Positions 2,926 to 29,200 of a stretch of 38,378 nt of DNA are shown piece after piece. The stretch is from Candidatus Cacconaster stercorequi (GTDB lineage: Bacteria > Bacillota > Clostridia > Oscillospirales > Oscillospiraceae): the NCBI GenBank assembly GCA_018064925.1, contig JAGHUH010000010.1:1-38378 (forward strand), read 5' to 3'. The first letter of the stretch is position 1. Each line of letters opens with the position of its first letter. The position numbers and the translations under genes are program-made. The notes beneath the pieces are model-generated. The model was given only the letters and a program-made list of their open reading frames with translations, did not search any database and was not told where the DNA came from.

Positions 2926-4683
2926 TTACAGACTAAATCTGCGGCGGTACTCATCGTAGTACTTGGCAAAGGTTTCGGATTTTACTTCCCGCAGACTGTT
3001 CAGATACTCATGGGTGTCAAAGTCGTCAGACTGCAGCTCAATCATGGCCACGCCGATGTTGCTGCAGTGATCGGCTACACGCTCATAGTTGGTGACCAGA
3101 TCATTGAACACGAAGCCGTGGTCATAAGTGCATTGTCCCTGACGCAGACGCTCTACATGGTGCAGCTTCATTTCGTCGCACAGCCCGTCGATGATCTCCT
3201 CCAGCGGCTCGATGCGGTTGGCGGAGAGTATATTGCCGTTGATGAATGCGTCGATGGCCAGATACAGGATCTCGGTAACGGCACCCTCCATCACGGTCAG
3301 CTCATGGGCACCGGCGTCGGAGAAGCTGATGTTCTTATCCTTGATCTCCCGGGCGGATTCGGCAATATTCAGTGCGTGGTCGGAGATGCGCTCAAAGTCG
3401 GAGATATTGTGCAGGAATTTACTGACGGCCTCGCTTTGATCGGTAGTCAGGGACTGACTGGTGATCTTCATCAGATAGGTACCCAGCTTGTCCTCGTAGC
3501 GGTCCAGTGTTTCCTCCAGCTCGGCCACGGCACGGAATCCATCCGCGGTGTAGTGGCTGCGCAGGGCAATGGCGTCCATGATGTTTTGCTGTGCTTTTTC
3601 CGCCATGGAATTGGTGACCAGACGGCTCTGCTCAATGGCCAGTGCCGGATGGGTGAGGAAGCGTTCTTCCAGACGATCCATATCCAGATCGGCGGGCTGC
3701 TTGCTGGTGGGCTTTTCCCGTACCAGCATACAGGCCAGCTTTTCGATGAGTCGGATAACGGGGAAGAGCACCACCACGGTGACCAGACGGAACATGGTAT
3801 TCAGTGCGGCCACGGTCACAGCCGACATGGTGGCGTTCAGGAACGAGAAGGGATGCAGGGCGTTGATGGCGTAGAACACCACACCGCAGAAAACAGCACC
3901 GAAAATGTCAATGAGCAGATGCACCACAGCGGTGCGCTTGCCGTTGATGTTGGCACCCAGAGAACTGATCAGTACGGGCAGCGCGCCGCCCACGGCGATA
4001 CCCAGGATGATGGGATAGGCGGTGGAGAAGCTCAACGCACCGGTCATGGCCAATGCCTGCAGGATACCCACAGCGGCGGCAGAACTCTGGATGATGGCGG
4101 TGAATACCATACCCACCAGAATGCCCAGCGCGGGATTGGAGAACTTGGTCATCAGACTGATGAAGGATGCACTCTCCCGCAGGGGAGTGACGGCGGCGCT
4201 CATGGCGCTCATGCCGTACATCAGCACGGCGAAGCCCAGCAGGATGTTGCCCACCTGGTGGTTGGAGGGCTTTTTGCTGAACTTGCGCAGATAGATGCCC
4301 ACGATGGCGAACAGGCCCGTGATGGTGGCACTGGAGAAGAGCTCCACCCATCCGCCGCCGCTGATGGAGCTGAGGCAGATGATCCAGCCGGTGATGCTGG
4401 TGCCCAGAATGGAGCCGAGAATAATGGAGATGGCGTGACGGAACTGCATCATGCCGGAGTTTACGAAGCCGATGACCATCACGGAGGTGGCGGACGAGGA
4501 CTGGATCAGCGCGGTGACGCCGGTGCCCAGCAAAATTCCCTTCAGCGGACTGCTGGTCAGGCGGTAAAGCACCACCTCCAATTTGTTGCCGGCCACGATA
4601 TTCAGGCCGTCGCCCATCAGAATGATACCGTACAAGAAAAGTGCCAGACCGCCCAGCAGCGACACAATGTTTGCAATACCCAT
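2926..4683 (-). CDS. Na/Pi-cotransporter family protein with C-terminal PhoU-like domain
   Basis: This 585-residue membrane protein has the two inverted Na/Pi-cotransporter repeats, each with its QSS signature: QSSSAT at 61-66 and QSSAA at 199-203. About eight hydrophobic segments lie in the first 330 residues. After a short charged linker (RLIEKLACMLVREKP), residues about 350-585 are helical and PhoU-like (for example LEETLDRYEDKLGTYLMKI and RISDHALNIAES). The family imports phosphate with sodium, or serves phosphate/nucleotide signalling, at the cytoplasmic membrane. ATG 4683 is chosen because GGGAGGG lies upstream and the conserved N-terminus begins there; the frame extends 59 codons further with no domain. 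It stands alone, with its own promoter. Confidence 0.92.
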   Translation of the reverse strand: MGIANIVSLLGGLALFLYGIILMGDGLNIVAGNKLEVVLYRLTSSPLKGILLGTGVTALIQSSSATSVMVIGFVNSGMMQFRHAISIILGSILGTSITGWIICLSSISGGGWVELFSSATITGLFAIVGIYLRKFSKKPSNHQVGNILLGFAVLMYGMSAMSAAVTPLRESASFISLMTKFSNPALGILVGMVFTAIIQSSAAAVGILQALAMTGALSFSTAYPIILGIAVGGALPVLISSLGANINGKRTAVVHLLIDIFGAVFCGVVFYAINALHPFSFLNATMSAVTVAALNTMFRLVTVVVLFPVIRLIEKLACMLVREKPTSKQPADLDMDRLEERFLTHPALAIEQSRLVTNSMAEKAQQNIMDAIALRSHYTADGFRAVAELEETLDRYEDKLGTYLMKITSQSLTTDQSEAVSKFLHNISDFERISDHALNIAESAREIKDKNISFSDAGAHELTVMEGAVTEILYLAIDAFINGNILSANRIEPLEEIIDGLCDEMKLHHVERLRQGQCTYDHGFVFNDLVTNYERVADHCSNIGVAMIELQSDDFDTHEYLNSLREVKSETFAKYYDEYRRRFSL

Positions 4684-4720
4684 AGACGCAAACCCTCCCA
4701 CGATAATGATTGTATCATTC

Positions 4721-4749
4721 AGTATACAGGAAATGCGGCACTTTGTCGA
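4721..4749 (-). promoter_or_regulatory. Sigma-A promoter of the Na/Pi-cotransporter gene
   Basis: On the minus strand, -35 TCGACA (4744-4749) and -10 TATACT (4721-4726) are separated by exactly 17 bases and lie 38 bases upstream of the ATG at 4683. Confidence 0.7.
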
Positions 4750-4887
4750 CAGGAAAAACCATAAAACCCATACAAAAAAGCTGACGCATTTTGTGTGCAG
4801 TTCCATACCATAATAACAGACGACCGGCGGATTGATTGCGAAAACACTGCGCCGAAGCAAAAGATCCTTTTCGAAGAAAAGTCATTC

Positions 4888-6678: not shown

Positions 6679-6821
6679 TATATTAAGAATGTGAATAAAT
6701 TGTAATCACCTGCGACTTTTCTGCAATTTATTCACAGTTTATTTACAATTATCGCTGTAGCCGTTGCTATACGGGGAATAATCGTATCTGTGCAATGAAG
6801 CAAGGCGGATGGAGGTGCCCG

Positions 6822-7127
6822 ATGGCGACTGGACAATATATCATAGGCGGCCTGATCGGGTTGGTTTTCGGCACCGGTGTGGCGTGCTTGAGCGCATGGC
6901 TGTCCGCCCGCAGCTTGGAGACAAGCAAAACAACACTGGTGCTGGGTGTCAGTTTTCTGCGGCAGTTATTTGATATTGCGGCGTTGCTGATCGTGTATCT
7001 GCTGCGCAATGTGCTGCCGTTTCCACTGTATGCTCTGCTGATTGGTACGGCGCTGGGTCTAAGCATCGGCGGCATTGTGCTGGCGGCACGAATCGGCAAG
7101 AAAATGGACAAAAAACAGAAGAATTGA
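6822..7127 (+). CDS. atpI: ATP synthase operon protein I (AtpI-like)
   Basis: This small membrane protein of 101 residues is the first gene of the atp operon. It shows about four hydrophobic segments (IIGGLIGLVFGTGVACLSAW, LRQLFDIAALLIVYLLRN, LYALLIGTALGLSIGGIVLA) and a charged lysine-rich tail, which fits the AtpI family thought to help c-ring assembly or Mg2+ supply. ATG 6822 is chosen because GGAGG lies six bases upstream; the ATG at 6795 adds nine residues without a ribosome site. Sequence identity in this family is low, so the name rests mainly on position and topology. Confidence 0.75.
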   Translation: MATGQYIIGGLIGLVFGTGVACLSAWLSARSLETSKTTLVLGVSFLRQLFDIAALLIVYLLRNVLPFPLYALLIGTALGLSIGGIVLAARIGKKMDKKQKN

Positions 7128-7175: not shown

Positions 7176-7847
7176 ATGGAAAATACCGCGAATGTACTGT
7201 TTTCCATTGGCCCGCTGGAGGTAACGAAAGCAGTGGTGTCCATGTGGGTCATCATTGCGGTTATCGGGATTGTCAGTTTTATCGCCACACGGCGATTGAA
7301 GGATGTACCCGGCCCCATCCAGAATGCGGCGGAAATGGCAGTGGCAAAGCTGCAGGATTATTTTACCGGCAATATGGGCGCTGAAAATGCGCGCCGCTAC
7401 TTCCCTGTGATGGCCACATTCTTTGTGTTCATTGTGGTGAGTAACTATTCCGGACTGCTGCCCGGTGCAGGAAAGCTCTTTTCCGTGCCCACGGCAAACC
7501 TGTCTACCACGGCAGGTCTGGCGCTGATCGCGTTTTTCACCACGCATGTGGTGGGCGTCAAGCGCAGGGGCTTTGTGGGGTATCTGAAAACCTTCCTGAC
7601 TCCCTTTGCCGTGATGCTGCCCCTGACGCTGATCGAGCAGCTGGTGCGTCCGCTTTCTCTGGCGCTGCGACTGTACGGTAACCTGTACGGCGAGGAAATG
7701 GTCACCGAGCAGTTGGGTGAGCTGTTCCCGCTGCTGCTGCCGCTGGTCATGCAGGTATTGAGCCTGCTGTTCTGCCTGATTCAGGCTGTCGTTTTCACCA
7801 TGCTGCTGTCGGTGTACGTCACCGAGGCGGTGGAAGACGAGGAGTAA
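7176..7847 (+). CDS. atpB: F0 subunit a
   Basis: The stator channel subunit of the F-type ATP synthase, 223 residues with five to six membrane segments. The essential arginine is Arg165 in SLALRLYGN (position of E. coli Arg210), and the flanking LIEQLVRPLSLALRLYGNLYGE block is the family hallmark. It forms the two half-channels that pass ions to the c ring. An AGAGAGGTGAGA ribosome site precedes the ATG at 7176. It is second in the operon, followed by atpE after a short AT-rich gap. Confidence 0.95.
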   Translation: MENTANVLFSIGPLEVTKAVVSMWVIIAVIGIVSFIATRRLKDVPGPIQNAAEMAVAKLQDYFTGNMGAENARRYFPVMATFFVFIVVSNYSGLLPGAGKLFSVPTANLSTTAGLALIAFFTTHVVGVKRRGFVGYLKTFLTPFAVMLPLTLIEQLVRPLSLALRLYGNLYGEEMVTEQLGELFPLLLPLVMQVLSLLFCLIQAVVFTMLLSVYVTEAVEDEE

Positions 7848-7901: not shown

Positions 7902-8129
7902 ATGACTTCAGGAATCATCGCATTGGCTGCCGCATTGGCAATCGCACTGAGCACCATCGGCCCCGCTATCGCGCAGGGTACCACCGCATCCAAGGCCATG
8001 GAGGCTATGGCTCGCCAGCCCGAGATGGCCAATACCATCCGCTCCAACATGATCATCGCTCTGGCTCTGATGGAGGCCCTGACCATTTACGGCCTGCTGA
8101 TCGCCTTCATGCTGATCGGCAAGATTTAA
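7902..8129 (+). CDS. atpE: F0 subunit c (rotor ring proteolipid)
   Basis: A 75-residue hairpin of two membrane helices with the conserved polar loop ARQPE (37-41). The ion-binding carboxylate is Glu58 in helix 2. Gln25 is at the position of the Na+ ligand Gln32 of Ilyobacter, but the residues after the Glu are Ala-Leu rather than Ser-Thr, so the full Na+ site is not present and proton coupling is more likely. The helix-1 packing motif, usually GxGxGxGxG, reads TxGxAxAxG (18-26), with alanines at two positions. AGGAGG is well placed before the ATG. Confidence 0.96.
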   Translation: MTSGIIALAAALAIALSTIGPAIAQGTTASKAMEAMARQPEMANTIRSNMIIALALMEALTIYGLLIAFMLIGKI

Positions 8130-8160: not shown

Positions 8161-8589
8161 TTGAGCATAAATGTGTCAGAAGTGATCTGGACCATCATTT
8201 GCTTCTTTGTGCTGCTGTTCGTGCTGAAAAAGTTTCTCTTTGACCCGCTGATCACCTTTATGGACGCACGCAAAGCCCGGGTGGAAGCCGGGATGGTTGA
8301 GGGCCGCGAGGCGCAGCGGAAAAAAGAGGAGAACGAAAATGCTCTGCGTGAGAGCTGGAAAAATCGCAGTATCGAAGCGAAGGAGCTTCTGGCAGCGGGA
8401 AAAGCTGCTGATGAGAAGGAGCGCGCCAAGGTACTGAGCCAGGCACAGGCAGAGGCGGCGCAGACCATGCGTGATGCCCGCGAGCGCGTGAACGAGGAGG
8501 GTGAGTCCGCCCGTCACGAGGTAAACGAGCAGATGGATGAGCTGGTGACGGTCTTGGCGCAGCAACTGCTGCAGAACGAGGCAAAGTAA
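8161..8589 (+). CDS. atpF: F0 subunit b
   Basis: Peripheral-stalk subunit of 142 residues: one N-terminal membrane helix (EVIWTIICFFVLLFVLKKFLF) followed by a long charged coiled coil to the C-terminus. It starts with TTG, supported by AAGGAGG eight bases upstream. It is somewhat shorter than usual (about 160). The next gene begins with another b-type segment, so the stalk is probably a b/b' heterodimer rather than a b homodimer. Confidence 0.92.
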   Translation: MSINVSEVIWTIICFFVLLFVLKKFLFDPLITFMDARKARVEAGMVEGREAQRKKEENENALRESWKNRSIEAKELLAAGKAADEKERAKVLSQAQAEAAQTMRDARERVNEEGESARHEVNEQMDELVTVLAQQLLQNEAK

Positions 8590-8602: not shown

Positions 8603-8629
8603 AGGAGAGGGGTGATGAAGCGGACATGA
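8603..8629 (+). promoter_or_regulatory. Overlapping five-codon ORF (MKRT) and ribosome site before the fusion gene
   Basis: AGGAG (8603-8607) is ideally spaced for ATG 8615, which encodes only MKRT and stops at TGA 8627-8629. The fusion gene's ATG (8626-8628) overlaps that stop as ATGA. The fusion start itself is 13 or more bases from the nearest purine-rich site. Translation of the long protein may therefore depend partly on re-initiation after the mini-ORF. Confidence 0.4.
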
Positions 8630-10866
8630 CCGGAAAAGATATTTTATTTGCGGTAATCAACTTTGTAATCTTGTTTGGCGCACTGTTTTTGATCACGCGA
8701 AAGATGATCGTGAAGATGTTCCGGGATCGAAAAGATCAGATCGCACAGGAACTGGAACAGACCGAGCGAGCCAAGCAGGAAGCGAAGAATCTGACTGCCG
8801 ATGTGGAGCGGGCGCAGCAGGAAGCGGCGCAGCGCGAACAGGAGCTGATCAGCGATACAAAGCGCCAGGTGCAGGAAAACAGCGAGGCGGCGGCTCAACG
8901 CGGACGCGATGAGGCACAGGTCCTGTTGGAAAACGCTGCAAAGGCAGAAACGCAGATGCGTGAAACGATGCGCGGTCAGGTCAGCGCCGAAGCCATTCGA
9001 CAGGTGGCGGAGCAGACCGGCGAAGTGCTGAAGGACAGCAAATTTGCGGATGCTCGTCAGGCGATGGTCGGGCGCTTCATTGAACAGGTAAAAGAATTGG
9101 TGGCAGCAATGCCGAGTGATATTTTGACTATGAATGAACTGAAGAAATTAAATATTTCTATCGCCAGTCCTGAACCGCTGTCGGACGAGGAGATGAAGAA
9201 GCTGACGCAGATCCTCTGCGAGACCTTCATTTCCTGCCGCAACGAGGTGGATGAGAATTTGATTGGCGGCGTGCGGATGCGCGTCGGCGATACGGTGTAT
9301 GACGGCACACTGGCACATTCGCTGGATCGACTGAGCCAGGAGGTGGAGAACAATACCCGCGCCGAGGATGAAGCGGAGCAGACCATGATGGATGATATCC
9401 GCGAGCACCTCAAGAACGCCGATGCCGATATTGATGTGTTCCAGACCGGTGAGGTCATCAGCGTCGGCGACGGTATTTGCCGTGTGGCCGGCCTGGCCGA
9501 TGTCATGGCGGGTGAAATGCTGGCCTTTGAAGGCGATCTGCGCGGCATGGTCATGGACCTGGAAAAGGAAAATGTGGGTGTTGTTTTGCTGGGCGATTTC
9601 TCCCACATTCAGGAAGGCGACAGCGTTCGCCGCACCGGACACATTATCGAAGTGCCCGTGGGCGCGGCGATGTCCGGCCGCGTGGTGGATGCACTGGGTC
9701 GTCCTGTGGATGGCAAGGGCCCCATCAAGAACGACGGCTTCCGCGCCGTGGAGAGTCCTGCACCCTCCGTGCTGAATCGTCAGCCGGTGAAGGTGCCCCT
9801 GCAGACGGGTATCAAGGCCATCGACGCACTGGTTCCCATTGGCCGCGGTCAGCGTGAGCTGATCATCGGCGACCGTCAGACCGGTAAGACCGCTATTGCT
9901 CTGGATGCCATTATCAATCAGAAGGGCAAGGGCGTGCAGTGCATCTATGTGGCCATCGGGCAGAAGGAATCCACCGTGGCCAATGTGGTGCAGAAGCTGA
10001 CCGAGTGCGGTGCCATGGAGTACACCACCGTGGTGTGTGCCCACGCATCCGAGCCGGCTCCCATGCTGTATATTGCACCCTATGCCGGTGCTGCAATCGG
10101 TGAATATTTCATGTATCAGGGCAAGGATGTTCTGATCGTATACGATGACCTGAGCAAGCAGGCAGCCGCTTACCGCGAAATTTCCCTGCTGCTCCAGCGC
10201 CCGCCAGGACGCGAGGCCTATCCCGGCGACGTGTTCTATCTGCACTCCCGTTTGCTGGAGCGTGCAGCAAAGCTGGATGACGCCTCCGGCGGCGGCAGCA
10301 TGACGGCACTGCCCATCATCGAAACGCAGGCGGGTGATATTTCCGCCTATATTCCCACCAATGTGATTTCCATTACCGATGGTCAGATCTTCCTGGAGAC
10401 CAATCTGTTCCATTCCGGTATTCGTCCGGCAATCAATGTGGGTCTGTCCGTGTCCCGTGTCGGCGGTGCCGCACAGATGCCCGCCATGAAGCAGGTGGCA
10501 GGTCGTCTGCGTACCGATCTGGCACAGTACCGCGAACTGGCATCCTTTGCCCAGTTCGGCTCCGATCTGGATAAGGCAACCCGCGCTACGCTGACCCGCG
10601 GCGAGCATATGACCGAGCTTCTGAAGCAGAATCAGTATGCCGCTATGGAAGTTGAGGAGCAGGTGATTGCCATCTTTGCCGCCAACGAAGGCTTTGCCGA
10701 CGATGTGGCGCTGACGGATATGGCACGCTTTGAGGCCGAAGTCGTTCCCTATGTAAAGACGGCTATGCCCGAACTGGTGGAGACCATCCGGGCGGGCAAG
10801 AAGATTCCTGCCGATATGCTGGAAACTCTGCGCGGTACCATTCGTACCTTTAAGGAAACATTCTGA
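8626..10866 (+). CDS. atpA: Fused ATP synthase subunit: b'-type stalk, delta C-terminal domain, alpha
   Basis: One uninterrupted 746-codon frame carries three subunit regions. Residues 1-165 are a b/b'-type stalk: membrane helix [18 protein letters not shown], then a long Glu/Gln/Arg/Lys coiled coil ending in the b-like segment near [14 protein letters not shown]. Residues about 172-240 match the C-terminal domain of delta ([39 protein letters not shown]). The N-terminal six-helix domain of delta is not visible. From about 245 to the end is a complete alpha of about 500 residues: [14 protein letters not shown] (278-291), Walker A GDRQTGKT (415-422), arginine finger Arg611 in [10 protein letters not shown]. 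There is no separate atpH or atpA in the operon. Mycobacteria are known to have a b-delta fusion; I recall no described b'-delta-alpha fusion. Domain calls are secure; how the chain is assembled is unknown. Confidence 0.93.
9375..9390 (+). promoter_or_regulatory. Candidate internal ribosome site and start for free alpha
   Basis: GGAG (9375-9378) is followed after six bases by two in-frame ATG codons (9385, 9388; residues 254-255). Starting here would give a 493-residue protein beginning [18 protein letters not shown], which lines up with the normal alpha N-terminus to within a few residues. A stronger AGGAGGTG (9338-9345) sits 39 bases before the ATG and could act as a standby site. It may also be chance, since GAG-rich codons are common in this helix. 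Confidence 0.4.
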
Positions 10867-10902: not shown

Positions 10903-11769
10903 ATGGCCAATATGCGTGAGATCCGCGCGAGGATCTCCAGCGTGAAAAACACCCAGCAGATCACCAAGGCAATGAAGATGGTGGCTGCGGCAAAGCTGCG
11001 CCGCACAGAGGGCGGTATGGCTGGCATCCGTGCCTTTGCCCAGCAGAGTCAGGAGATCTTGGATGAGCTGCTTACCGGGGAAAATCACTATTCCAACCGA
11101 TTCCTTGCCCCACGCAAGGAAGTAAAGCGCGTTTGCTATGTGCTGTTTATCGGCAGCCGCGGACTTTGCGGCGTGTATAACCACGCGATATTACGCTATG
11201 CCCAGGATATTCTGGCGCAGGAGAAGCGTGATGCCACGGTGGTGGTATGTGGCCGATGGGGACGCGATGTGATCGCCCATGCAGGCTTGCCGGTCAGCAA
11301 GACCTTTGCTGAATTGAGCGATACGCCCAATATGGACGAGGCGCTGCAGGTATCCGAATATCTCAAGCGGATGTACTTGAGCGGCGAGGCGGATGAAATT
11401 CATCTGATCTATCAGCATTTCCGCTCTGCACTGCAGCAAATCCCCAGCACCATGCAGCTGCTGCCGGCAACCCCGGAGCGAAGTGGCGATGGAACAGCAA
11501 ACGACTATATCTTTGAGCCGGATGCCGAAAGCATACTGGAAAATGTGATGCAGCTGTATCTGAACAATACGGTGCTTTCCGTGATGCTGGAGGCCAAGGT
11601 GGGCGAGCAGGCCGCTCGTATGACCGCCATGAGTACGGCTACCGACGCCACGACGGAACTGATCGGCGAGTTGAGCTTGAAGATGAACCGAGCCCGTCAG
11701 GCGGCGATCACCACCGAGATCGCGGAGATCGTCGGCGGTGCCAACGCTTTGAAAAAAGCAAAAAAATAA
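10903..11769 (+). CDS. atpG: F1 subunit gamma
   Basis: The central rotor shaft, 288 residues. The N-terminal helix reads ANMREIRARISSVKNTQQITKAMKMVAAAKLRR, typical of gamma, and the C-terminal helix carries the signature SLKMNRARQAAITTEIAEI. The middle holds the Rossmann-like domain (YVLFIGSRGLCGVYNHAI). AAAGGAGGGGAGG precedes the ATG, 36 bases after the fusion gene's stop. Normal length and no odd features. Confidence 0.96.
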   Translation: MANMREIRARISSVKNTQQITKAMKMVAAAKLRRTEGGMAGIRAFAQQSQEILDELLTGENHYSNRFLAPRKEVKRVCYVLFIGSRGLCGVYNHAILRYAQDILAQEKRDATVVVCGRWGRDVIAHAGLPVSKTFAELSDTPNMDEALQVSEYLKRMYLSGEADEIHLIYQHFRSALQQIPSTMQLLPATPERSGDGTANDYIFEPDAESILENVMQLYLNNTVLSVMLEAKVGEQAARMTAMSTATDATTELIGELSLKMNRARQAAITTEIAEIVGGANALKKAKK

Positions 11770-11800: not shown

Positions 11801-13189
<1,389 letters not shown>

Positions 13190-13198
13190 GAGGTGTCT

Positions 13199-13612
13199 AT
13201 GAAAGATCAGATCCATCTCCGAATCGTCACAGCCGGCGGCACGGTATATGATGGTCAGTGCAGCTATGTGGAGCTTCCGTTGGAAGGCGGTGGCATCGGC
13301 GTGCTCAGCGACCATGCACCAACCATTGGCGCTGTGTGCGACGGCGTGGTGAAAAGCCGCAGCGATGCAGGCGAGGAATGTATCGCTGTGGGACAAGGTG
13401 TGGTTAACATTGCACACAATGAGATCATTGTCCTGACGCGTACAGCCGAGTGTGCAGAGAACATTGATGTTCAGCGTGCGGCAGATGCCGAAAGGCGTGC
13501 CCGTGAGCGTCTGACTGATAAGAACGGCGAATGGGATACGATGCGCGCCGAAGCAGCGCTGTATCGCGCAATTGCGCGCCAGAACGCTGTTCGCATGAGC
13601 GGAAGAGAATAA
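13199..13612 (+). CDS. atpC: F1 subunit epsilon
   Basis: The rotor-foot and inhibitory subunit, 137 residues. The N-terminal beta-sandwich has IRIVTAGGTVYDG-like and GIGVLSDHAPTIG motifs, followed by a two-helix C-terminal domain (ERRARERLTDKNGEW to the end). ATG 13199 is chosen because AAGAGG lies five bases before it; the GTG at 13193 overlaps that site. It begins nine bases after the beta stop and is the last atp gene before a strong terminator. Confidence 0.94.
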   Translation: MKDQIHLRIVTAGGTVYDGQCSYVELPLEGGGIGVLSDHAPTIGAVCDGVVKSRSDAGEECIAVGQGVVNIAHNEIIVLTRTAECAENIDVQRAADAERRARERLTDKNGEWDTMRAEAALYRAIARQNAVRMSGRE

Positions 13613-20797: not shown

Positions 20798-20866
20798 AAG
20801 ACTGACAAGAAAATACCGTTTTTCTGACAAAAAGCGGTGTTGTATCGAAAGATTATAAGGAACCGT

Positions 20867-20906
20867 GTGCTGCGCTCTGAAATGGGATTTTTTTGGAGTG
20901 CAGCAC
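20867..20906 (+). promoter_or_regulatory. RNA hairpin covering an upstream ribosome site before virD4
   Basis: gtgctgcgctc (20867-20877) pairs with gagtgcagcac (20896-20906), 11 pairs with one G-T, around an 18-base loop ending in seven T. The 3' arm contains most of the GGAG (20895-20898) that would serve the ATG at 20907. The next start, GTG 20937, with its own AGGGAGG, stays free. The hairpin may limit translation from the upstream ATG or be a processing site. Confidence 0.55.
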
Positions 20907-20936
20907 ATGAGTGCATGGAAAAGGGAGGTCACGCGC

Positions 20937-22973
20937 GTGAAAAAAGGAAACCCCGCTCTCAAGGATAAGATGGGTGGCGCACTCGAAAAATTGGGAAAAG
21001 GACGATATACCCTTTATATTCTGCTGGGCATTGTGGCCTCCGGCGTTGTGGGATTCTTGCTGCGTAATGTTGTTTCCAGTATCGGCGATGTCGTGATGGG
21101 CAACGGCGTTTCTGTGGATTTCGGCGTTTTGCTGGATTGGCAGACCTGGCTGATCGGTTTGGTATTTGTGGGCATATTTGCCCTTGTCAGTGCAATCAGC
21201 AACGGTTTTCACTTCAGCGGCATGGGAGGAGCGTTATCCTCGAAGAAAAAAGCGGATGTCAATAGTGTGCTGGAGAACAGCCGCTTTATGACGGAAAAAG
21301 AACGCGATAAGTATTATAAGCCCCGTGTGTATGAGGATCTTGATGGACTGAAAAGTCATAAAGAGGACGGCGTTCCGGCTCGCGCTATTGTGGATAAAAA
21401 GGGCCAGCTCCAGATCAATTTTATCAACGGCGTCCATTCTCTGGTTGTCGGTTCTACCGGTTCCGGTAAGACGACCACATTTATTAACCCCATGATCCAA
21501 CTGCTTGCCGCCACAAGCTGCGGCAGCTCCATGATTATGACAGACCCCAAGGGCGAGCTGTTCGATCTGCATTCCCAGTATCTGAAGGATCGCGGATATG
21601 ATGTGCTGGTGATGGATCTGCGCGATACCTATTCCTCCTGCCGTTGGAATCCGTTGGACGCCATTTGGGATATGTATCAGGAGTTTCTGGACGCGGGTAA
21701 GGGCATTATTGCCCACCGCGACAATATGGCCGACTATCCGGATCTGAATCAGGTGGATGGTCTGGCCGAGCCGGATGCGGTATGGTGTGAGTGGCGCGGC
21801 AAGGCATATGCCGATTTGCAGCACTGCTATGATGATGCGGCATCCGCAAAGCAGAGAATTTACGATGAGATGTATGAAGATTTGAGCGATCTTATTTCGG
21901 GAATTTGCCCGATTACCAATGAAAAAGATCCGTTGTGGGAAAAAGGTGCGCGCTCCATCGTGATGGCGACCTGTCTTGCCATGCTGGAGGACAGCGAAGA
22001 TTCCCGTCTGGAAATGACAAAGGAAAAATTTAACTTCTTCAACCTCAATAAGATTTTAACCAACAGTGAAAATGAGTATCAGGCACTGAAGGATTATTTT
22101 GCCGGCAGAAGCGCGCTGTCGCAGGCGGTAACGCTGTCCCGGCAGGTGCTGGCGGCGGCTGATCAGACGCTGTCGAGCTATATGTCCATTACATTTGATA
22201 AGCTCTCGATTTTTAATGACCGTGGCATCTGCGGCCTGACATCTGCCACAGATATTCACGCCGAGCAGTTTGCCGAGAGACCGACGGCGCTGTTCTTGAA
22301 GATTCCTGATGAAAAGGACACGCGCCACGGTCTGGCATCATTGTTTGTGCTGAGTATCTATAAAGCGCTGATCAAGGTGGCATCCGCGCGGGATGATTTG
22401 TCCCTGCCGCGGAATGTGTACTTTATCATGGACGAGTTCGGTAATATGCCGAAGATCGAGAAATTTGATAAAATGATTACCGTTGGTCGTTCCCGTAAGA
22501 TCTGGTTTAACATGGTGGTTCAGAGCTACGCCCAGCTGAAAAATGTTTACGGCGAGGGCGTGGCGGAGGTCGTCAAATCCAACTGCGGCATGAAGATGTT
22601 CATCGGATCCAACGATATTGATACCTGCAAGGAATTCAGTGAGCTGTGCGGCAATAAGACAGTGCGAACGGTATCCACCTCCTCCAGTGTGGGCAGCCGT
22701 GAGGGCGATGTCAATGTGTCCAACCAGCTGCAGACCCGCCCGCTGATCTATCCCAGCGAGCTGCAGAAGCTGAACAACAAGGAATCTACCGGTAATGCGG
22801 TGATCGTTACTTTCGGCAATTATCCGCTGATGACCAAGTACACACCGTCGTATAAGTGTAAGTATTATCATTTCGGGCGCATGAACCTGGATGACATTCG
22901 TTCCCATGTGTTCCTTGCGGATAAAGTATTTTACGATATCAATGCACGCAATCGGCTTATTTTAGGCGAATAA
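20937..22973 (+). CDS. VirD4/TraG-type T4SS coupling ATPase
   Basis: 678 residues. Two N-terminal membrane helices (YTLYILLGIVASGVVGFLL; WLIGLVFVGIFALVSAIS) anchor a cytoplasmic ATPase. Walker A GSTGSGKT is at 172-179 and is followed by TDPKGELFDLHSQYLKDRGY, the family signature. Walker B is YFIMDEFGNMP, with Asp499-Glu500. The end carries SELQKLNNK and the usual C-terminal strands. VirD4 proteins recruit substrates to the secretion channel. GTG 20937 is preferred (AGGGAGG eight bases upstream); ATG 20907 would add ten residues but its site is in a hairpin. No relaxase gene lies in the window, so the cargo may be protein. Confidence 0.94.
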   Translation: MKKGNPALKDKMGGALEKLGKGRYTLYILLGIVASGVVGFLLRNVVSSIGDVVMGNGVSVDFGVLLDWQTWLIGLVFVGIFALVSAISNGFHFSGMGGALSSKKKADVNSVLENSRFMTEKERDKYYKPRVYEDLDGLKSHKEDGVPARAIVDKKGQLQINFINGVHSLVVGSTGSGKTTTFINPMIQLLAATSCGSSMIMTDPKGELFDLHSQYLKDRGYDVLVMDLRDTYSSCRWNPLDAIWDMYQEFLDAGKGIIAHRDNMADYPDLNQVDGLAEPDAVWCEWRGKAYADLQHCYDDAASAKQRIYDEMYEDLSDLISGICPITNEKDPLWEKGARSIVMATCLAMLEDSEDSRLEMTKEKFNFFNLNKILTNSENEYQALKDYFAGRSALSQAVTLSRQVLAAADQTLSSYMSITFDKLSIFNDRGICGLTSATDIHAEQFAERPTALFLKIPDEKDTRHGLASLFVLSIYKALIKVASARDDLSLPRNVYFIMDEFGNMPKIEKFDKMITVGRSRKIWFNMVVQSYAQLKNVYGEGVAEVVKSNCGMKMFIGSNDIDTCKEFSELCGNKTVRTVSTSSSVGSREGDVNVSNQLQTRPLIYPSELQKLNNKESTGNAVIVTFGNYPLMTKYTPSYKCKYYHFGRMNLDDIRSHVFLADKVFYDINARNRLILGE

Positions 22974-22996
22974 GCCATCGTTGAGGAGAAAGTATT

Positions 22997-23947
22997 GTGA
23001 AAAAAGTATTTTTTCTGACAATTACAGTATTGTTGCTGATGATGCAGATCACCGTGCCCGTATTTGGCGCAGAGATTGATATGAATTACGAGGGCGAGAT
23101 CGACAGCTTTACCGGCACACCGATTCATGAAAGCAGCAGCGAGATGGTTGCGGCGGAGCGTGTATCCGTTGATGAAAATACATATTATGATCGCACAAAT
23201 GGTGCGTTCGTCTATACGACTGCCAACGGTGCCGAGATCCTTTCAACGGCGGCAAGCGGTATGGTGACAACCAATGCGGTTCAGATCACTGTTCCGACCG
23301 GTGTGGCTACGGAGCTTTACCGCGACGGCAAGGTAGTGGATACCCCGAACCTGAGCAATATTTCTGAGCCGGGAAGCTATGTGCTGATTGTCAACAATAG
23401 TGGTCAGGTGGCACAAAAGATTCAGTTTACAATTGTGAATAGCGTTACAGGCGCGCTAAACGAATATATCATGCCTGATGGCTTTTCTGTTACCCAGGTC
23501 ATGCGGGGCGACGAGAGTGTGTCGTCCGGCGCATCAAAAGTCGATTTAAGCGAAGAGGGTACTTATACCATTACATATACCTGTCAGGCAACCGATATCT
23601 CGTATCAATTGAACATTACCGTGGATCACACACCGCCCAAGCTCGCTTTGGAGGCAGTGGTCAATGATGTGGCTAAGGGACCGGTGGACATCTCTGATCT
23701 GGAGCAGGGCGCAACCATTTCTATCCAATTGGATGGTGAAAAGATTGCCTATACCGATCAATTGACCCGCAGCGGCAGCTATGTGATTACGGTACAAGAT
23801 GAGGCGGGAAATGCCAATACATACAAGTTTGTGATACAGGTTTATTTGAATATCAGCAGTTTGGCTTTTTTTGCTGTAACCTCGGCTGTGGTTATCGGCG
23901 TAATCGTGTATCTTATTTACAAGAGAAAGCATTTAAGAACACGATGA
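22997..23947 (+). CDS. Exported one-TM protein with Ig-like extracellular part
   Basis: 316 residues, GTG start with TTGAGGAGAAAG upstream. It has a signal peptide (KKVFFLTITVLLLMMQITVPVFGA), an extracellular region of beta-sandwich character (strands such as GSYVLIVNNSGQ, GTYTITYTCQA, SGSYVITVQDEAGN; the last with DHTPPKL before it resembles bacterial Ig-like modules), then a single C-terminal membrane helix (SLAFFAVTSAVVIGVIVYLIY) and a basic tail KRKHLRTR. The topology is therefore type I, outside-facing. It lies between virD4 and the VirB6-like gene, a place where a channel accessory or surface component would fit. No named family recognised. Confidence 0.75.
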   Translation: MKKVFFLTITVLLLMMQITVPVFGAEIDMNYEGEIDSFTGTPIHESSSEMVAAERVSVDENTYYDRTNGAFVYTTANGAEILSTAASGMVTTNAVQITVPTGVATELYRDGKVVDTPNLSNISEPGSYVLIVNNSGQVAQKIQFTIVNSVTGALNEYIMPDGFSVTQVMRGDESVSSGASKVDLSEEGTYTITYTCQATDISYQLNITVDHTPPKLALEAVVNDVAKGPVDISDLEQGATISIQLDGEKIAYTDQLTRSGSYVITVQDEAGNANTYKFVIQVYLNISSLAFFAVTSAVVIGVIVYLIYKRKHLRTR

Positions 23948-23992
23948 GGTGCGAGAATTTGAACGAGGTCACCAAAATGGGGGATACATATC

Positions 23993-26164
23993 ATGGGAAT
24001 CATTGATAAAGCGATAAATGCAATTTCGGGTGTGGTGAGCAAAATCGGCGACTATGTCGGCGATGCGATTACTACTGCCATCAGCAATTTCATCGGAAAG
24101 ATTCTGTACTACATTACCAATGCGTTTATGTGGCTGGTATCGGTGATGCAGCAATTATTTGATGTGTTCTCCGGCTCTACAAAGGTAGAATACAGCGGTG
24201 ACCATATGTATTTGATCGATGTGTTCTTCCGGAATAAAAGTGTGACCAATGTGTATTGGGCAATTACTTTTCTGGGCATCGTCTTCGTCATGATGTTTAC
24301 GCTGATCTCTATTCTGCGTAAGAGCTTTGATTTGGGCGATAAGTTGCAAAACAAATCCATGGGCGGCATTTTGACGGCGACATTCAAAAGCATTTTTATT
24401 ATGCTGATCCTGAGCTTTGCCTTGAGTGCGGCATTAAATCTGACCAATCTGGCAATCAATCGAATCGGCTATGCCTTTGATAATGCGGATTCATTTTCCG
24501 AGCCGCAGGAGATCCATTTTACAGATGAACAGTATGCCACCATGGCACGCATTTATAGAACCATTGGCAATTACTCTCTGAACCCATCGTATAACAGCTC
24601 TTATAACTTGAATAGCTGCTATAACGATATTCGGCAGGATTTGTCCTATCTGGAGCAGCAGGGCGTATTTGACTTGGTGTATACGACGAAAGAGATCACA
24701 AAATCAGGCGAAGAGGCAGTTGTTGATACCTGGCAAAGCGCATTGCAGGAGCTCGTTTATGCGCAAGATCCTTCTGTGGAGTTGAGTCTGGATATCCGCC
24801 ATGATGAAGTATCCACATCGCTGCTGCATATTATGGATGTTTTAAAGAGCAATGCCAAATTCTATCCGCTGGAGAGCTATAAAAACACATATTCTGTGGC
24901 AAATGGTGTCAGCCTGGATCGCGTGCTGTTCCTTTCCGGTACAACCAGCGCCGCAATCAACAATAAGTATAATCAAAACCCCTATTTGACAGACGGATTG
25001 CGCGGTGCATTTTATACCGGCGACAAGAGCATTTACAGCTTTAGCGATGTCAAGAGCGCATTTGATATTGGCGTGACAGGCATCAGCTATCTGTTCATTT
25101 GGGTTCTGGCATATTTCACGCTCCGAAATTTGCTGCGCTGTATATTCAGCTGCATTCTGCGAATTTTCGGCATGATTTCTCTGTATATCGTTGCACCGTT
25201 GACGGTGGCATCCATGCCGTTGGATGACGGCGAGAAGTTTAAGCAGTGGATATTGAACATGGTCGTGCAGGGGCTCGGCGTTCTGGGCGTCATTATTCCC
25301 ATGCGTCTGATTATCCTCTTTGCACCCATTGTGTTAAGTCCCGATCTGGTTTTGTTTCAGTCGGTTTCCCTCAACTTTATTGCCAAGGTACTGCTGATTG
25401 TAGGCGGATTGGAAGCGGTAGAGGGCTTCAGCAACATCGTTACGGGTATCCTGACCAACAACAGTGCGATGACCGCGATGCATAGCCATGAAGCGGCCAA
25501 CCGTATGGGCGATATGGCATTTGACTGGGGTGTTGGCAAGACAAAGGCAGCGGGCCGCTTTGCTGGAAAGGTTGCCAGCGGCATTGGTACGGTAGCTTCT
25601 ACCGCAGCAGGACTTGCTTCTGATGCAACCGGTCTTACGGCGCTTGGCCAAAAGGTTGCCGGAGTGGCGCAAAGTGCATACAGCGGTCTGAAGAATTTCG
25701 GCAGCGCCATCCAGAATGGATGGAATGCTTTTGCCGAAGGCGGTGGACTTCCGGGCCTTGCCTATCATGCTGCCCGCAAATCGCCGAGCGATCAGGCCGT
25801 GCAGGCTGCCACCATTGGTGGTCTCAGCGGACAGGGAAACAATCCGGCGGCCGGTAACCTGCATAGCCAGACCGGCGGTATTGGCGATAACCTGCATGAC
25901 CAGATTGGCGGTACTGACGGTCAGTTAGGTAGCGTTGGCAGCATTGGCGGTACTGACGGTCAGTTAGGCAGCGTTGGTAGCATTGGCGGAAACCTTGGTG
26001 ACCAGACAGGTGGTATTACAGGCAGCAATCCAATCAATCAAAGCAACAGCAGCAGTCACTTGGGCAAGAGTGACTTTACTCCGAATATCGGAAACAACAC
26101 GAATGTACTGAAATCCCCGCCGCCTCCCCGCAGTTCAATGGGCGGTAAGGATAAGAAGTCATAA
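23993..26164 (+). CDS. VirB6/TrbL-like polytopic T4SS membrane protein
   Basis: 723 residues. It opens with an amphipathic stretch and a helix (GKILYYITNAFMWLVSVMQQLF), then YWAITFLGIVFVMMFTLISIL and FKSIFIMLILSFALSAALNL. A soluble domain of about 180 residues follows (about 165-345), then a second bundle of helices (SYLFIWVLAYFTLRNLL; SLYIVAPLTVAS; GVLGVIIPMRLIILFAPIVL; FIAKVLLIVGGLEAVEGF). The C-terminal 220 residues are Gly/Ala/Ser-rich and low in complexity, with a tandem repeat. This plan matches VirB6/TrbL inner-membrane channel proteins of Gram-positive T4SS, placed as usual just before virB4. The name is by topology and context. Confidence 0.82.
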   Translation: MGIIDKAINAISGVVSKIGDYVGDAITTAISNFIGKILYYITNAFMWLVSVMQQLFDVFSGSTKVEYSGDHMYLIDVFFRNKSVTNVYWAITFLGIVFVMMFTLISILRKSFDLGDKLQNKSMGGILTATFKSIFIMLILSFALSAALNLTNLAINRIGYAFDNADSFSEPQEIHFTDEQYATMARIYRTIGNYSLNPSYNSSYNLNSCYNDIRQDLSYLEQQGVFDLVYTTKEITKSGEEAVVDTWQSALQELVYAQDPSVELSLDIRHDEVSTSLLHIMDVLKSNAKFYPLESYKNTYSVANGVSLDRVLFLSGTTSAAINNKYNQNPYLTDGLRGAFYTGDKSIYSFSDVKSAFDIGVTGISYLFIWVLAYFTLRNLLRCIFSCILRIFGMISLYIVAPLTVASMPLDDGEKFKQWILNMVVQGLGVLGVIIPMRLIILFAPIVLSPDLVLFQSVSLNFIAKVLLIVGGLEAVEGFSNIVTGILTNNSAMTAMHSHEAANRMGDMAFDWGVGKTKAAGRFAGKVASGIGTVASTAAGLASDATGLTALGQKVAGVAQSAYSGLKNFGSAIQNGWNAFAEGGGLPGLAYHAARKSPSDQAVQAATIGGLSGQGNNPAAGNLHSQTGGIGDNLHDQIGGTDGQLGSVGSIGGTDGQLGSVGSIGGNLGDQTGGITGSNPINQSNSSSHLGKSDFTPNIGNNTNVLKSPPPPRSSMGGKDKKS
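25907..25984 (+). repeat. Two 39-bp tandem repeats in the VirB6-like gene
   Basis: Bases 25907-25945 and 25946-25984 are near-identical 39-mers, each encoding GGTDGQLGSVGSI; they differ at only two or three silent bases. Weaker related GG-D-Q units flank them (TGGIGDNLHDQI before, GGNLGDQTGGI after). The unit keeps the reading frame, so copy number can vary without breaking the protein. Confidence 0.85.
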
Positions 26165-26227
26165 GATGATCCTGAGAAATAGGATCAGAGGTCCAATAAT
26201 TTTCTTTGAGTAAGGCGGTGTACCTAA

Positions 26228-29200
26228 ATGCGACTCATACCCGGTAAAACAAAAGTTCAGGTGGAGTTTTTTAAGGGTGTAACCGTAGGAGATATGATAG
26301 TCGGCGGTCTTGCCGCAGTTATGATCCTGCTGGTGTTTACCTCAACCATACCCGGTAAATTGCCGATCGCTATTGGTCTGATCATTGTAGCGATTGCGTT
26401 GCTGGTGCGTCTGGACACAGAGCCGAATTATGTCTATCTGTTGCACATTATGCGTCACTTTGCCTATCGGCGCCGTTTTGAGCGTACATTTGATGATGCT
26501 ACGCTCAAGCGGATGCAGACAGAGAACAAGGACAAGGTTGCATTTGAAAAGCTTTTCCAGGAGGAAGAGAAGGAAGAAAGCGCTGACGAGCGCAAAGAAC
26601 GACGCAAGGCAGAGCGGGCAGAACGCAAAGCAGAGGATAAGATACTCAAAAGCAGAAAGGCTACAGAAGCAGAGAAGGACGCCATCTATCTCAAGCGCGC
26701 CCAGCGGAACAGCGCAAAAAAACGATCCAATAGTGCCAAAAAAGCAAGCAACGCAAGCGCCTATGATATGGAAAATATTGTGGCCTTTACGGGGATTGCG
26801 AATAATCTCATTGAATATGCCGGAGAATATTTCGGCGCGGCAATTGAGATCCCGCCGGTTGAGTTCCGCTTTATGTCGGAAATGCGCCGCGCAAACTCCA
26901 TTGAAAACGGCTTGGGCAGCGTACTTCGTGTATTGCCGCCGGAATATGCGGCCAATATTGTAAAGATCGAGCGTCCTGTCAGCTATGATCGTTACCTTGA
27001 TAATGAGTATGATAAATTGGACAGCCTGCGTTTGTCCTATGAAAAGGGGCTGTTGACGGAAGAAGAGCTGAAAAGCCGCGTGGAGGTTTTGTACGATCGT
27101 ATCAACGATCTGCGCAATCTTTGCTATAATGAAAAGGTCATGCTGCCTTTTTATTATGTGGTACTGTTTAATAGTGATCGCCAGCAGCTGGAGAATATGG
27201 TGCAGAGCGCCATCGGAAATTTGCAGCGCGGCGAAATGAATCCGCATCGTTTGGATACCAAGGAGTTGGCTGTATTTCTGAAGTATACCAATCAGGTGGA
27301 TTTTGATGAGCGTGATATTGATCAGATCGATCCGGCGCATTATGCCCTGTGGGCGATGCCGGAGCAGGTACATATGAAGGGTCGTACGGTAGTAGTCAAT
27401 CAGATTATCACGCATAATATGCGAATTGCGAACTATCCCAGCATCGTCAATGATGCGTGGCTGGCTAGCGTTTTGTCGCTGCCTGCCACCAAAGTGGTCA
27501 TTAAGTGCACGCCCATGGATCGGGGAAAGTCGATTCGCGCCATTGACCGCTCCATGCAGGAATTGCGCAGCCAATATATGAATACCGGCGTGGATTCCAG
27601 ACGCCTGGAGCTGCAGGAGCATATCCAGACATTGGCAAATCTGCTGTCTATGCTGCAGGGTGACAATGAAACGCTGCTGGAGCTGAATGTTTATGTGACC
27701 GCATATGACATTCATGCCACCCGTGCCGACGACTCGATGATCCAGCCGCCGCCCTCCTGCCTTGCCAGCATCGCTAATATGAAGCGGCTGGTGCGGCGTA
27801 CCTATCAGGAACAGGGCATGACGCTGAACAACATGGAGTTCGATCAGGTCAATGCGTTCATTGCTTCACAGGTCAGCGCATTGGATCCTATGTGCGGAAA
27901 GGGTCGTGGCGTTCCCAGCAACTCCATTGCGGCTGCGTATCCGTGGGTATTCGCCAGTGTGTCGGATGAAAAGGGCGTAAAGCTGGGCAGCTCGGATGGC
28001 GTTCCCGTATTTGTGGACTTTTTCCGCCGCGACAGCGAGCGTGTCAACTCGAACATGGTAATCGTGGGTAAATCCGGTTCCGGTAAGTCCTATGCCACGA
28101 AGAGTATTCTGACCAATCTGGCTGCGGATGGCGCAAAGATCTTTGTCATCGACCCTGAAAATGAATATACAGAGCTTGCGGAAAACCTGAAGGGCAAGTT
28201 TATCAATGTGGGCAATGCGAAATTCGGTCGCCTGAACCCGTTCCATATCATCACGGCCCTGGAGGACGATGAAGCCAACGGCTCCACCGTATCCGGCAGC
28301 TATGCGACGCACTTGCAGTTTTTGGAGGAATTCTTCCGCCAAATTTTGCCGGATTGCGAAAAGGATGCCATGGAATACCTCAACAGCATGATTGACCGTA
28401 TGTATACCAATATGGGGATTACAGCGGAAACAGATCTGTCCAAGCTGCGTCCGGAAGATTATCCGGTATTTGACGACCTGTACGATGCGGTTCTGGCGGA
28501 GTTCCAATCCACAGATAACGAATATATCCGCTCCATGCTTCGTACCCTGATGAATTATGTTGCGAAGTTTTCCAACGGCGGACGAAATGCCAATATTTGG
28601 AACGGCCCGTCCTCCGTTACCACGGCGGAAAACTTTACCGTGTTCAACTTCCAGAGTCTGCTGGCAAACCGAAACAGCTCGATTGCCAACGCACAGATGC
28701 TGTTGGTGCTGAAATACATTGATAATGAGATCATTAAAAACCGCGACTACAATACCAAATACGGATTGAACCGCAAAATTGTGGTGGTCATTGATGAGGC
28801 ACATGTGTTCATTGATACCAAGTACCCGGCGGCACTGGACTTCATGTACCAGTTGGCCAAGCGTATTCGTAAGTATAACGGTATGCAGATCGTGATTACC
28901 CAGAATATCAAGGACTTCGTTGGCTCGGAGGAAATTGCCCGAAAGTCCACCGCAATCATCAACGCCTGCCAGTACAGCTTTATTTTCCCGCTGTCGCCGA
29001 ATGATATGGGCGATTTGTGTACGCTGTACGAAAAGGCGGGTGGCATAAACGGCATCGAGCAGGAGCAGATCATCAATGCGCCCCGCGGTCAGGCATTTGC
29101 CATTATGAGTCCGCAGAGCCGCTCAACCTTCCAGATCAATGTTCCGAAGGACATGGTAGCCATGTTTAAGGAGCAAAAATATCAAAGCAACTATTTTGCC

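Follow-up and report, generated by a model that had tools for sequence, protein, structure and literature searches.

In ordinary FoF1 enzymes, the N-terminal domain (NTD) of subunit delta lies on the threefold axis. V/A-type ATPases carry two or three EG stalks on the head, and the mycobacterial b-delta fusion contains a full delta and ends before alpha. Fusion of b and delta has been described for Gordonia and Mycobacterium (PMC5709465, in the sections available). The closest parallel to the locus reported here is engineered. In Bacillus PS3 FoF1, Ueno et al. (2025) removed residues 2-104 of delta and joined what was left of it to alpha (PMC12229609; statements from this paper, here and below, come from the sections of it available). 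The resulting enzyme carried as many as three stalks and a-subunits, and its H+/ATP ratio was 5.8 ± 0.4, compared with 3.0 ± 0.2; the relation given is N(H+/turn) = Nc x Na. By cryo-EM, particles with 0, 1, 2 and 3 stalks made up 15, 51, 26 and 8%, respectively, the low stalk number being put down to loss during grid preparation, and the authors concluded that the delta NTD restricts the number of stalks to one (PMC12229609). They also stated that every ATP synthase to date has just one a-subunit, FoF1 enzymes with several not having been identified. They suggested that nature may use the same route to several stalks and named natural delta-alpha fusions in Acidaminococcus fermentans and in UniProt entries G4Q3K6 and A0A1I2C5T3 (PMC12229609). 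The engineered deltaN-alpha structure is PDB 9JC1, cited in the data section of the paper.

The window, by which we mean the whole 38,378-nt stretch of DNA analysed, contains at positions 8626-10866 (+ strand, as for all parts of the gene) a single open frame of 746 codons with no internal stop, assigned by ORF, Pfam and NCBIfam analysis to a 746-aa triple fusion in which b' is followed by the delta C-terminal domain (CTD) and an entire alpha. The b' part (8626-9120, aa 1-165) consists of a membrane helix, a coiled coil and a delta-binding tail, with ATP-synt_B (PF00430) at aa 7-130 and the tail aligned to canonical b. It is followed by the delta CTD (9127-9342, aa 168-239), where OSCP (PF00213) is matched over profile positions 96-171 of 172 and the NTD is absent. 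A linker (9343-9384, aa 240-253), variable in sequence and near-constant in length in the clade, leads into alpha (9385-10863, aa 254-746), which is spanned by NCBIfam atpA (TIGR00962, E = 3e-238) and contains ATP-synt_ab_N (274-338), ATP-synt_ab (395-610) and ATP-synt_ab_C (617-742). An AlphaFold2 (AF2) monomer model of moderate quality (mean pLDDT 73.6, pTM 0.54, 13 alignment rows) predicts b' helices at 3-134, 138-158 and 163-172, strands and helices of the delta CTD between aa 176 and 242, and low confidence in the linker (pLDDT <50 at 245-249); as a monomer prediction, it has no bearing on assembly. The alpha P-loop (GDRQTGKT), its SVSR arginine finger and the P-loop of beta are present, and the key residues of alpha are invariant in the 13 alignment rows; two other triple fusions have the P-loop variants GDRQCGKS and GDRQSGKT. 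We take these stretches to be functional catalytic sites. Assignment of alpha to the N-ATPases was rejected, as TIGR03324 scored 632.8 bits against a cut-off of 750.5 and TIGR00962 scored 791.6 against one of 484.45. The first-pass annotation had placed the domain limits correctly to within a few residues as judged by Pfam and NCBIfam. The catalytic residues that it described as kept are found in the sequence, and its claim that the stalk is covalently tied to F1 holds, b', delta CTD and alpha being in one chain.

The fusion gene lies in an F-type operon that contains a, b, c, alpha, beta, gamma and epsilon, all on the + strand; the complete delta (NTD and CTD) of an F-type enzyme is represented by the CTD only. 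At the head of the operon, an ORF without a Pfam or NCBIfam match (6795-7127) encodes a small hydrophobic protein of 110 aa, which from its position we take to be atpI-like, as in typical atp operons. Next come Fo subunit a (7176-7847; PF00119, E = 3.8e-47), containing LALRLYGN, presumably the essential-arginine stretch, and subunit c (7902-8129; PF00137, E = 3.1e-20), whose stretch MEALTIY, with E then A, we assume to be as in H+-type rings. E then A was found in c of 54 of the 70 triple fusions scored and ET in one, and the pattern was unmatched in 15. A separate subunit b without a C-terminal delta-binding tail (8161-8589; PF00430, E = 5.5e-16), ending ~20 residues short of canonical b, precedes the fusion, and gamma (10903-11769; PF00231, E = 3.4e-90), beta (11804-13189; TIGR01039, E = 6.3e-244) and epsilon (13193-13612; PF02823 and PF00401) follow it. 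In contrast to V/A-type ATPases, the recognised parts of the operon are F-type. The order a-c-b-[b'-delta-alpha]-gamma-beta was complete in 22 of 80 related loci when simple motifs were used, at least one member being missed or mis-called in the others. Outside the operon, a Na/Pi cotransporter with PhoU domains is encoded upstream (2926-4860, - strand), and conjugative-transfer genes lie a few kb downstream (20865-29971), including a T4SS coupling protein (20865-22973) and a TraG-like ATPase (26228-29971).

When aa 163-325 were searched against the sequences of solved structures, chain 9jc1_I of the engineered enzyme was the best match (E = 6.2e-27; runner-up, 4.6e-17), with an alignment colinear through the delta CTD, the linker and the N-terminus of alpha. 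Foldseek with the AF2 model placed 9jc1 chains I, K and J as the top three; the rmsd was ~19 Å for the matches listed, so only the ranking was used. The distance between the delta motif and the alpha barrel is 54-60 residues in 76/76 triple fusions scored, compared with 58 in the engineered chain and 54-63 in 10 of 11 double (delta-alpha) fusions scored. In its architecture, the gene is of the deltaN-alpha type, with the delta NTD missing and the delta CTD in frame with alpha. Like the engineered PS3 FoF1 (9JC1), it has lost the delta NTD and joins the delta CTD to alpha by a linker of near-equal length. Unlike that enzyme, in which the b2 dimer is free, it is natural, carries b' in front and is accompanied by a separate b without the delta-binding tail. 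The natural doubles (A. fermentans, G4Q3K6 and A0A1I2C5T3 in the available sections of PMC12229609; here L022, L024, L026, L164 and L171) share the delta CTD on alpha and the absence of the NTD, but in the doubles found here b is separate, of canonical length where measured (9/15), and their position in the alpha tree is another (AU p = 0.00013 against one clade). The mycobacterial b-delta fusion (PRK13428) resembles the triple fusion in having a b-type stalk protein on delta and a second b alongside. The triple fusion is not of that type, however, since it has the delta CTD only and its chain continues into alpha, and PRK13428 was absent from the best 25 of the 56 matches to it.

The genome that contains the window is a draft of 1.83 Mb in 46 contigs, 88.5% complete. 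A profile search of it detected one OSCP match, inside the fusion, and a search with the fusion as query found one alpha, the fusion itself, and otherwise matched beta only. In a set of 60 genomes, 14 have a near-full-length, stop-free match to the fusion, namely this genome, ten others of its genus, one of the same family (G035) and two of other families of the order (G054 and G055); two further matches were broken by a contig end (G019) or covered the tail only (G025). Among 394 sampled genomes of the order, 18, from families f1, f18, f19, f20 and f23, match over b' and delta, one of them (G425) as two pieces in one frame. A scan of GTDB contigs gave 371 related stretches, of which the best 80 were retained as named loci. 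By profile count, b', delta CTD and the alpha N-terminus are in one frame in 77 of these 80, and b'-delta-alpha is unbroken as far as the DNA goes in 76, seven of which run to a contig end. The exceptions are L095 and L119, where b'-delta and delta-alpha are separate frames; L071, fused but with an alpha frame that stops early beside Ns; and L116, a single MAG with an in-frame stop inside b' (L116:4274-4276). Locus records name Clostridia, Oscillospiraceae, Ruminococcaceae and similar groups, many from rumen or gut, and bacterium MS4 (L070), a strain name that gave no match in the literature. A candidate quadruple fusion, b-b'-delta-alpha (L013 and L106, same contig), was rejected, as Ns break b and the b tail is out of frame. 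The triple fusion is a trait of a large clade, not a one-off. Searching samples of genomes from the class (391) and the phylum (398) with the delta CTD and alpha N-terminus returned, among the matches listed, no stop-free frame of triple length beyond the window's own; stop-free delta-alpha frames of 583-691 residues were found in at least 35 of the 391 class genomes. Such frames, of 604-659 residues, also occur in at least 10 sampled genomes from other classes of the phylum.

These results bear out the first-pass annotation in calling the gene a real triple fusion, in one open frame and present in 77 of the best 80 of 371 stretches, within an operon otherwise complete that has no atpH; there is no separate delta in the operon, and the genome's one OSCP match is in the fusion. 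The domain combination that it proposed to look for, here b', delta CTD and alpha N-terminus in one frame, is present in those 77 loci. Of the two observations that it said would overturn its reading, neither a stop or frameshift between the b'/delta part and alpha (frame unbroken in 76 of the best 80 loci) nor a separate complete atpH or atpA elsewhere in the 88.5% complete draft was found.

As for the missing NTD, 19 of 19 chosen genomes (14 with triple fusions, four with doubles and one with a separate short delta) contain one OSCP match each, and a complete separate delta was found in none of the 19. In 15 genomes the match does not begin before profile position 93; in the other four it begins at 19, 35, 74 and 80, which we read as extension of the match into the b' helix. 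PF00430 gives two b-type matches in 13 of 14 carriers of the triple fusion, the one to the fused b' lying below the Pfam cut-off in three cases; in the remaining carrier (G017), it matches only b, also below the cut-off. Because the delta NTD is absent, more than one stalk would be possible. The separate b also differs from the canonical protein. Of the 15 triple-clade loci for which b was sought, 11 yielded it, and in nine of these it has 139-147 residues, ~20 short of the canonical end (the longer ones have 229 residues in L079 and 160 in L119). The missing ~20 residues are presumably the delta-binding stretch of canonical b. By alignment, the fused b' retains a stretch matching this tail, which runs directly into the delta CTD. 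The median b lengths found with motifs, 141 for triples (61/76), 161 for doubles (9/15) and 162 for canonical loci (14/31), may be off by several residues or include mis-hits (L011, L156). We also observed that the C-terminal part of the L079 b looks repeated and that L027:1420-1638 encodes a free-standing delta of 72 residues, CTD only, beside an ordinary alpha, possibly an intermediate or an alternative route to several stalks.

In a tree of 125 alpha sequences, the 76 triple fusions and the two split forms make up one clade (SH-aLRT 100), in which the architecture is kept in 76 of 78 rows, and canonical lineages lie between this clade and the doubles. The part of the tree with the doubles also contains three canonical rows and one full-delta fusion, so a single origin of the doubles need not be assumed. 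The 125 rows are the 168 loci with a recognised alpha minus repeats, near-copies, short rows and rows with X. The alpha pattern missed 21 loci, including triple fusions L041, L067, L088, L089, L126, L129 and L131 and, among those with stop-free delta-alpha frames, L167, L168, L178, L182 and L183. Rows were classed as triple (T), double (D) or canonical (C) according to how far the frame extends ahead of alpha, with L055, L180, L187, L095, L119 and L116 set by hand. For the AU test, 64 of the rows were used, the long-branch rows L025 and L018 being left out. The triple clade has support of 100/99 in this tree, and joining triples and doubles in one clade was rejected (AU p = 0.000128, lnL 126 lower), which excludes descent of the triple fusion from the delta-alpha doubles found here. 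The root was not inferred, and gain and loss are not separable from the tree alone; even so, the combined change, in which delta loses its NTD and is joined to alpha, probably had at least two origins and would then be convergent.

Two variant architectures bear on what the fusion does. In the split forms L095 and L119, inside the triple clade, the delta linked to b' is degenerate (14.3 and 16.3 bits; cut-off, 22.3) and the one linked to alpha is intact (37.3 and 45.1 bits), which is consistent with every alpha needing a delta. As b' has been cut from alpha in these two, its bond to the rest of the chain appears dispensable. The split regions are L119:3983-6499 and L095:2611-5251, and the b'-delta protein of L095 apparently has two delta-like repeats. 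Full-length delta, NTD included, is fused in frame to alpha in L180 and L187 (one genus, with ~202 residues ahead of the barrel; open frames of the same total length recur in six genomes of that genus) and also in L055. Because such fusions exist, fusion to alpha alone is not proof of several stalks; with a full delta, three copies on the axis could hardly be accommodated.

Considering these observations together, we propose that a complex with several stalks is the normal state of this enzyme, and give this reading a probability of roughly 0.58. The reasoning leans on the engineered enzyme, whose chains are the best sequence and fold matches and whose linker is of similar length. The short separate b of most loci, purifying selection on b', delta CTD and alpha, and the lack of a conserved internal start also speak for it. 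Against it speak the scarcity of three-stalk particles in the engineered preparation, the full-delta fusions, the split forms, the longer b of L079 and L119, a second alpha fragment in one carrier (G017) and the window's own weak internal start. Alpha is present three times in F1, and no other alpha was found in the eight carriers at least 94% complete (G018, G007, G002, G004, G011, G035, G054 and G055), where the other matches listed are ≤32% identical and appear to be beta and V/A-type-like proteins; each F1 would therefore contain three b'-delta units. As b' is covalently attached, b', delta CTD and alpha would be made 1:1:1. In our model, each of the three alphas carries its own delta CTD and its own b' half-stalk, each b' would pair with one free b via the coiled coil, and each b-b' pair would recruit one a-subunit; the short separate b would reach F1 mainly via b'. 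This would give a composition of (b'-delta-alpha)3 beta3 gamma epsilon b3 a(2-3) c(n), in which the peripheral stalks would number up to three. Two to three times as many protons would then pass per ATP according to N(H+/turn) = Nc x Na, allowing ATP synthesis at low proton-motive force or fast proton pumping against a weak one. For the fullest version, a natural F-type enzyme with three stalks and three a-subunits, independent of the doubles found here and with each alpha wired to its own membrane stalk, we see even odds.

One alternative is that all three alphas are fused but a single b' makes contact with b and a. The other two b' would lie idle in the membrane, and the enzyme would be an ordinary one-stalk one with extra anchors. 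The engineered particles, most of which had one stalk (51%) or none (15%), speak for this, as does the fact that the genome does not fix the amounts of a and b produced; the low stalk count was, however, ascribed to loss in grid preparation (PMC12229609, in the sections available). Moreover, an idle b' could be freed again at no cost, but purifying selection acts on each of b', delta CTD and alpha (omega 0.24-0.36, 0.14-0.35 and 0.08-0.11, respectively) and the architecture is retained in 76 of 78 rows of the clade. We regard idle anchors as unlikely, if worth serious attention. We hold it for distinctly improbable that free alpha is made too, by internal initiation or proteolysis of the linker, giving one fused and two free alphas and a single stalk. 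At the start of alpha in the window, GGAG stands six bases ahead of ATG ATG (9375-9390, + strand), a putative internal start with a best duplex of -5.8 kcal/mol, and a stronger site is found in L003 (-10.3 kcal/mol); in this one genome, internal initiation may occur at this weak start. The site is unconserved across the clade. An anti-Shine-Dalgarno duplex reaching -6 kcal/mol was found in 19/76 triple linkers versus 29/31 canonical alpha starts (controls: 176/604 windows inside alpha and 29/37 gamma starts), the linkers as a group are weaker than the alpha-body windows (one-sided p = 0.0006), and no start codon is present in the linker region of 11/76. The 76 triples, scored with a wider alpha-motif pattern than before, thus do not support a conserved internal start. 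An earlier scan had the same outcome: 106 loci were reduced to 80 distinct ones, and 66 were scored, 14 being missed by the alpha-motif pattern (L013, L095, L106, L116 and L119 were omitted beforehand, and L010 gave no frame). The linker, variable and poorly predicted in the AF2 model, could be cleaved, but there is no sign of a conserved cleavage motif; over its 11-16 codons, three of the four pairs compared have an omega of ~1 and the fourth has 0.25, so that its length is kept and its sequence is rather free.

The remaining two alternatives to a multi-stalk enzyme concern its direction and the gene itself. We think it very improbable that the enzyme is mainly an ATP-driven pump, with a fusion that makes the machine sturdier or orders its assembly and does not serve to raise the H+/ATP ratio. 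Use of FoF1 for pumping is common among fermenting gut bacteria. In addition, several carriers, such as G018, G007, G002, G004 and G011, have matches of 27-31% outside the atp operon that we read as V/A-type-like, so these carriers may possess more than one rotary ATPase; the direction, synthesis or pumping, is nevertheless not readable from sequence. A link to Rnf was considered and dropped, since the Rnf/Nqr family PF03116 is present in 13/13 carriers and equally in 18/18 relatives without the triple fusion and hence does not discriminate. That the fusion gene is degenerate or made by assembly, with a working delta and alpha elsewhere, is extremely improbable. The genome is an 88.5% complete draft, and in another carrier (G017, 73% complete) a contig begins with a fragment of a second alpha (G017:C77:1-495; 166 residues, 63% identical to the window's). 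Against this, the same frame recurs in 76 of the best 80 loci, and in the eight carriers named above no second delta was found, the other matches listed being at most 32% identical; for the clade, the shared unbroken frame and the lack of a second delta refute the idea.

A delta that lacks its NTD and is fused to alpha, the design so far built in the laboratory for multi-stalk enzymes, thus occurs in a large natural clade of gut-type Clostridia. The first-pass annotation knew of no described case of its fusion. This does not stand for delta-alpha without the delta NTD, which was engineered and noted in A. fermentans in 2025 (PMC12229609, in the sections available) and is prior art. It stands for the b' extension, as no report of a b'-delta-alpha fusion was found in the titles and abstract openings returned from 5.39 million open-access papers. 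That annotation had neither drawn the consequence that three alphas per F1 imply three b'-delta units nor stressed the absent delta NTD as the feature permitting more than one stalk. If the form with three stalks and three a-subunits is real, FoF1 would no longer be limited to a single stalk and a single a-subunit, and the H+/ATP ratio could be up to three times c/3. With several stalks, this ratio, a constant of bioenergetics, would gain a second evolutionary dial besides c-ring size, in anaerobes near the energetic limit. The existence of multi-stalk ATP synthases in nature becomes testable from one operon.

Finally, doubles of delta CTD and alpha are widespread in Clostridia (L022, L024, L025, L026, L162-L165, L170, L171, L176, L186 and L189), far exceeding the three cases named in the available sections of PMC12229609. 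In one genome of the window's genus (G012), a double of the other lineage (L024) is present instead of the triple fusion, with a c subunit that is longer and of another type, possibly reflecting replacement of the operon by transfer.
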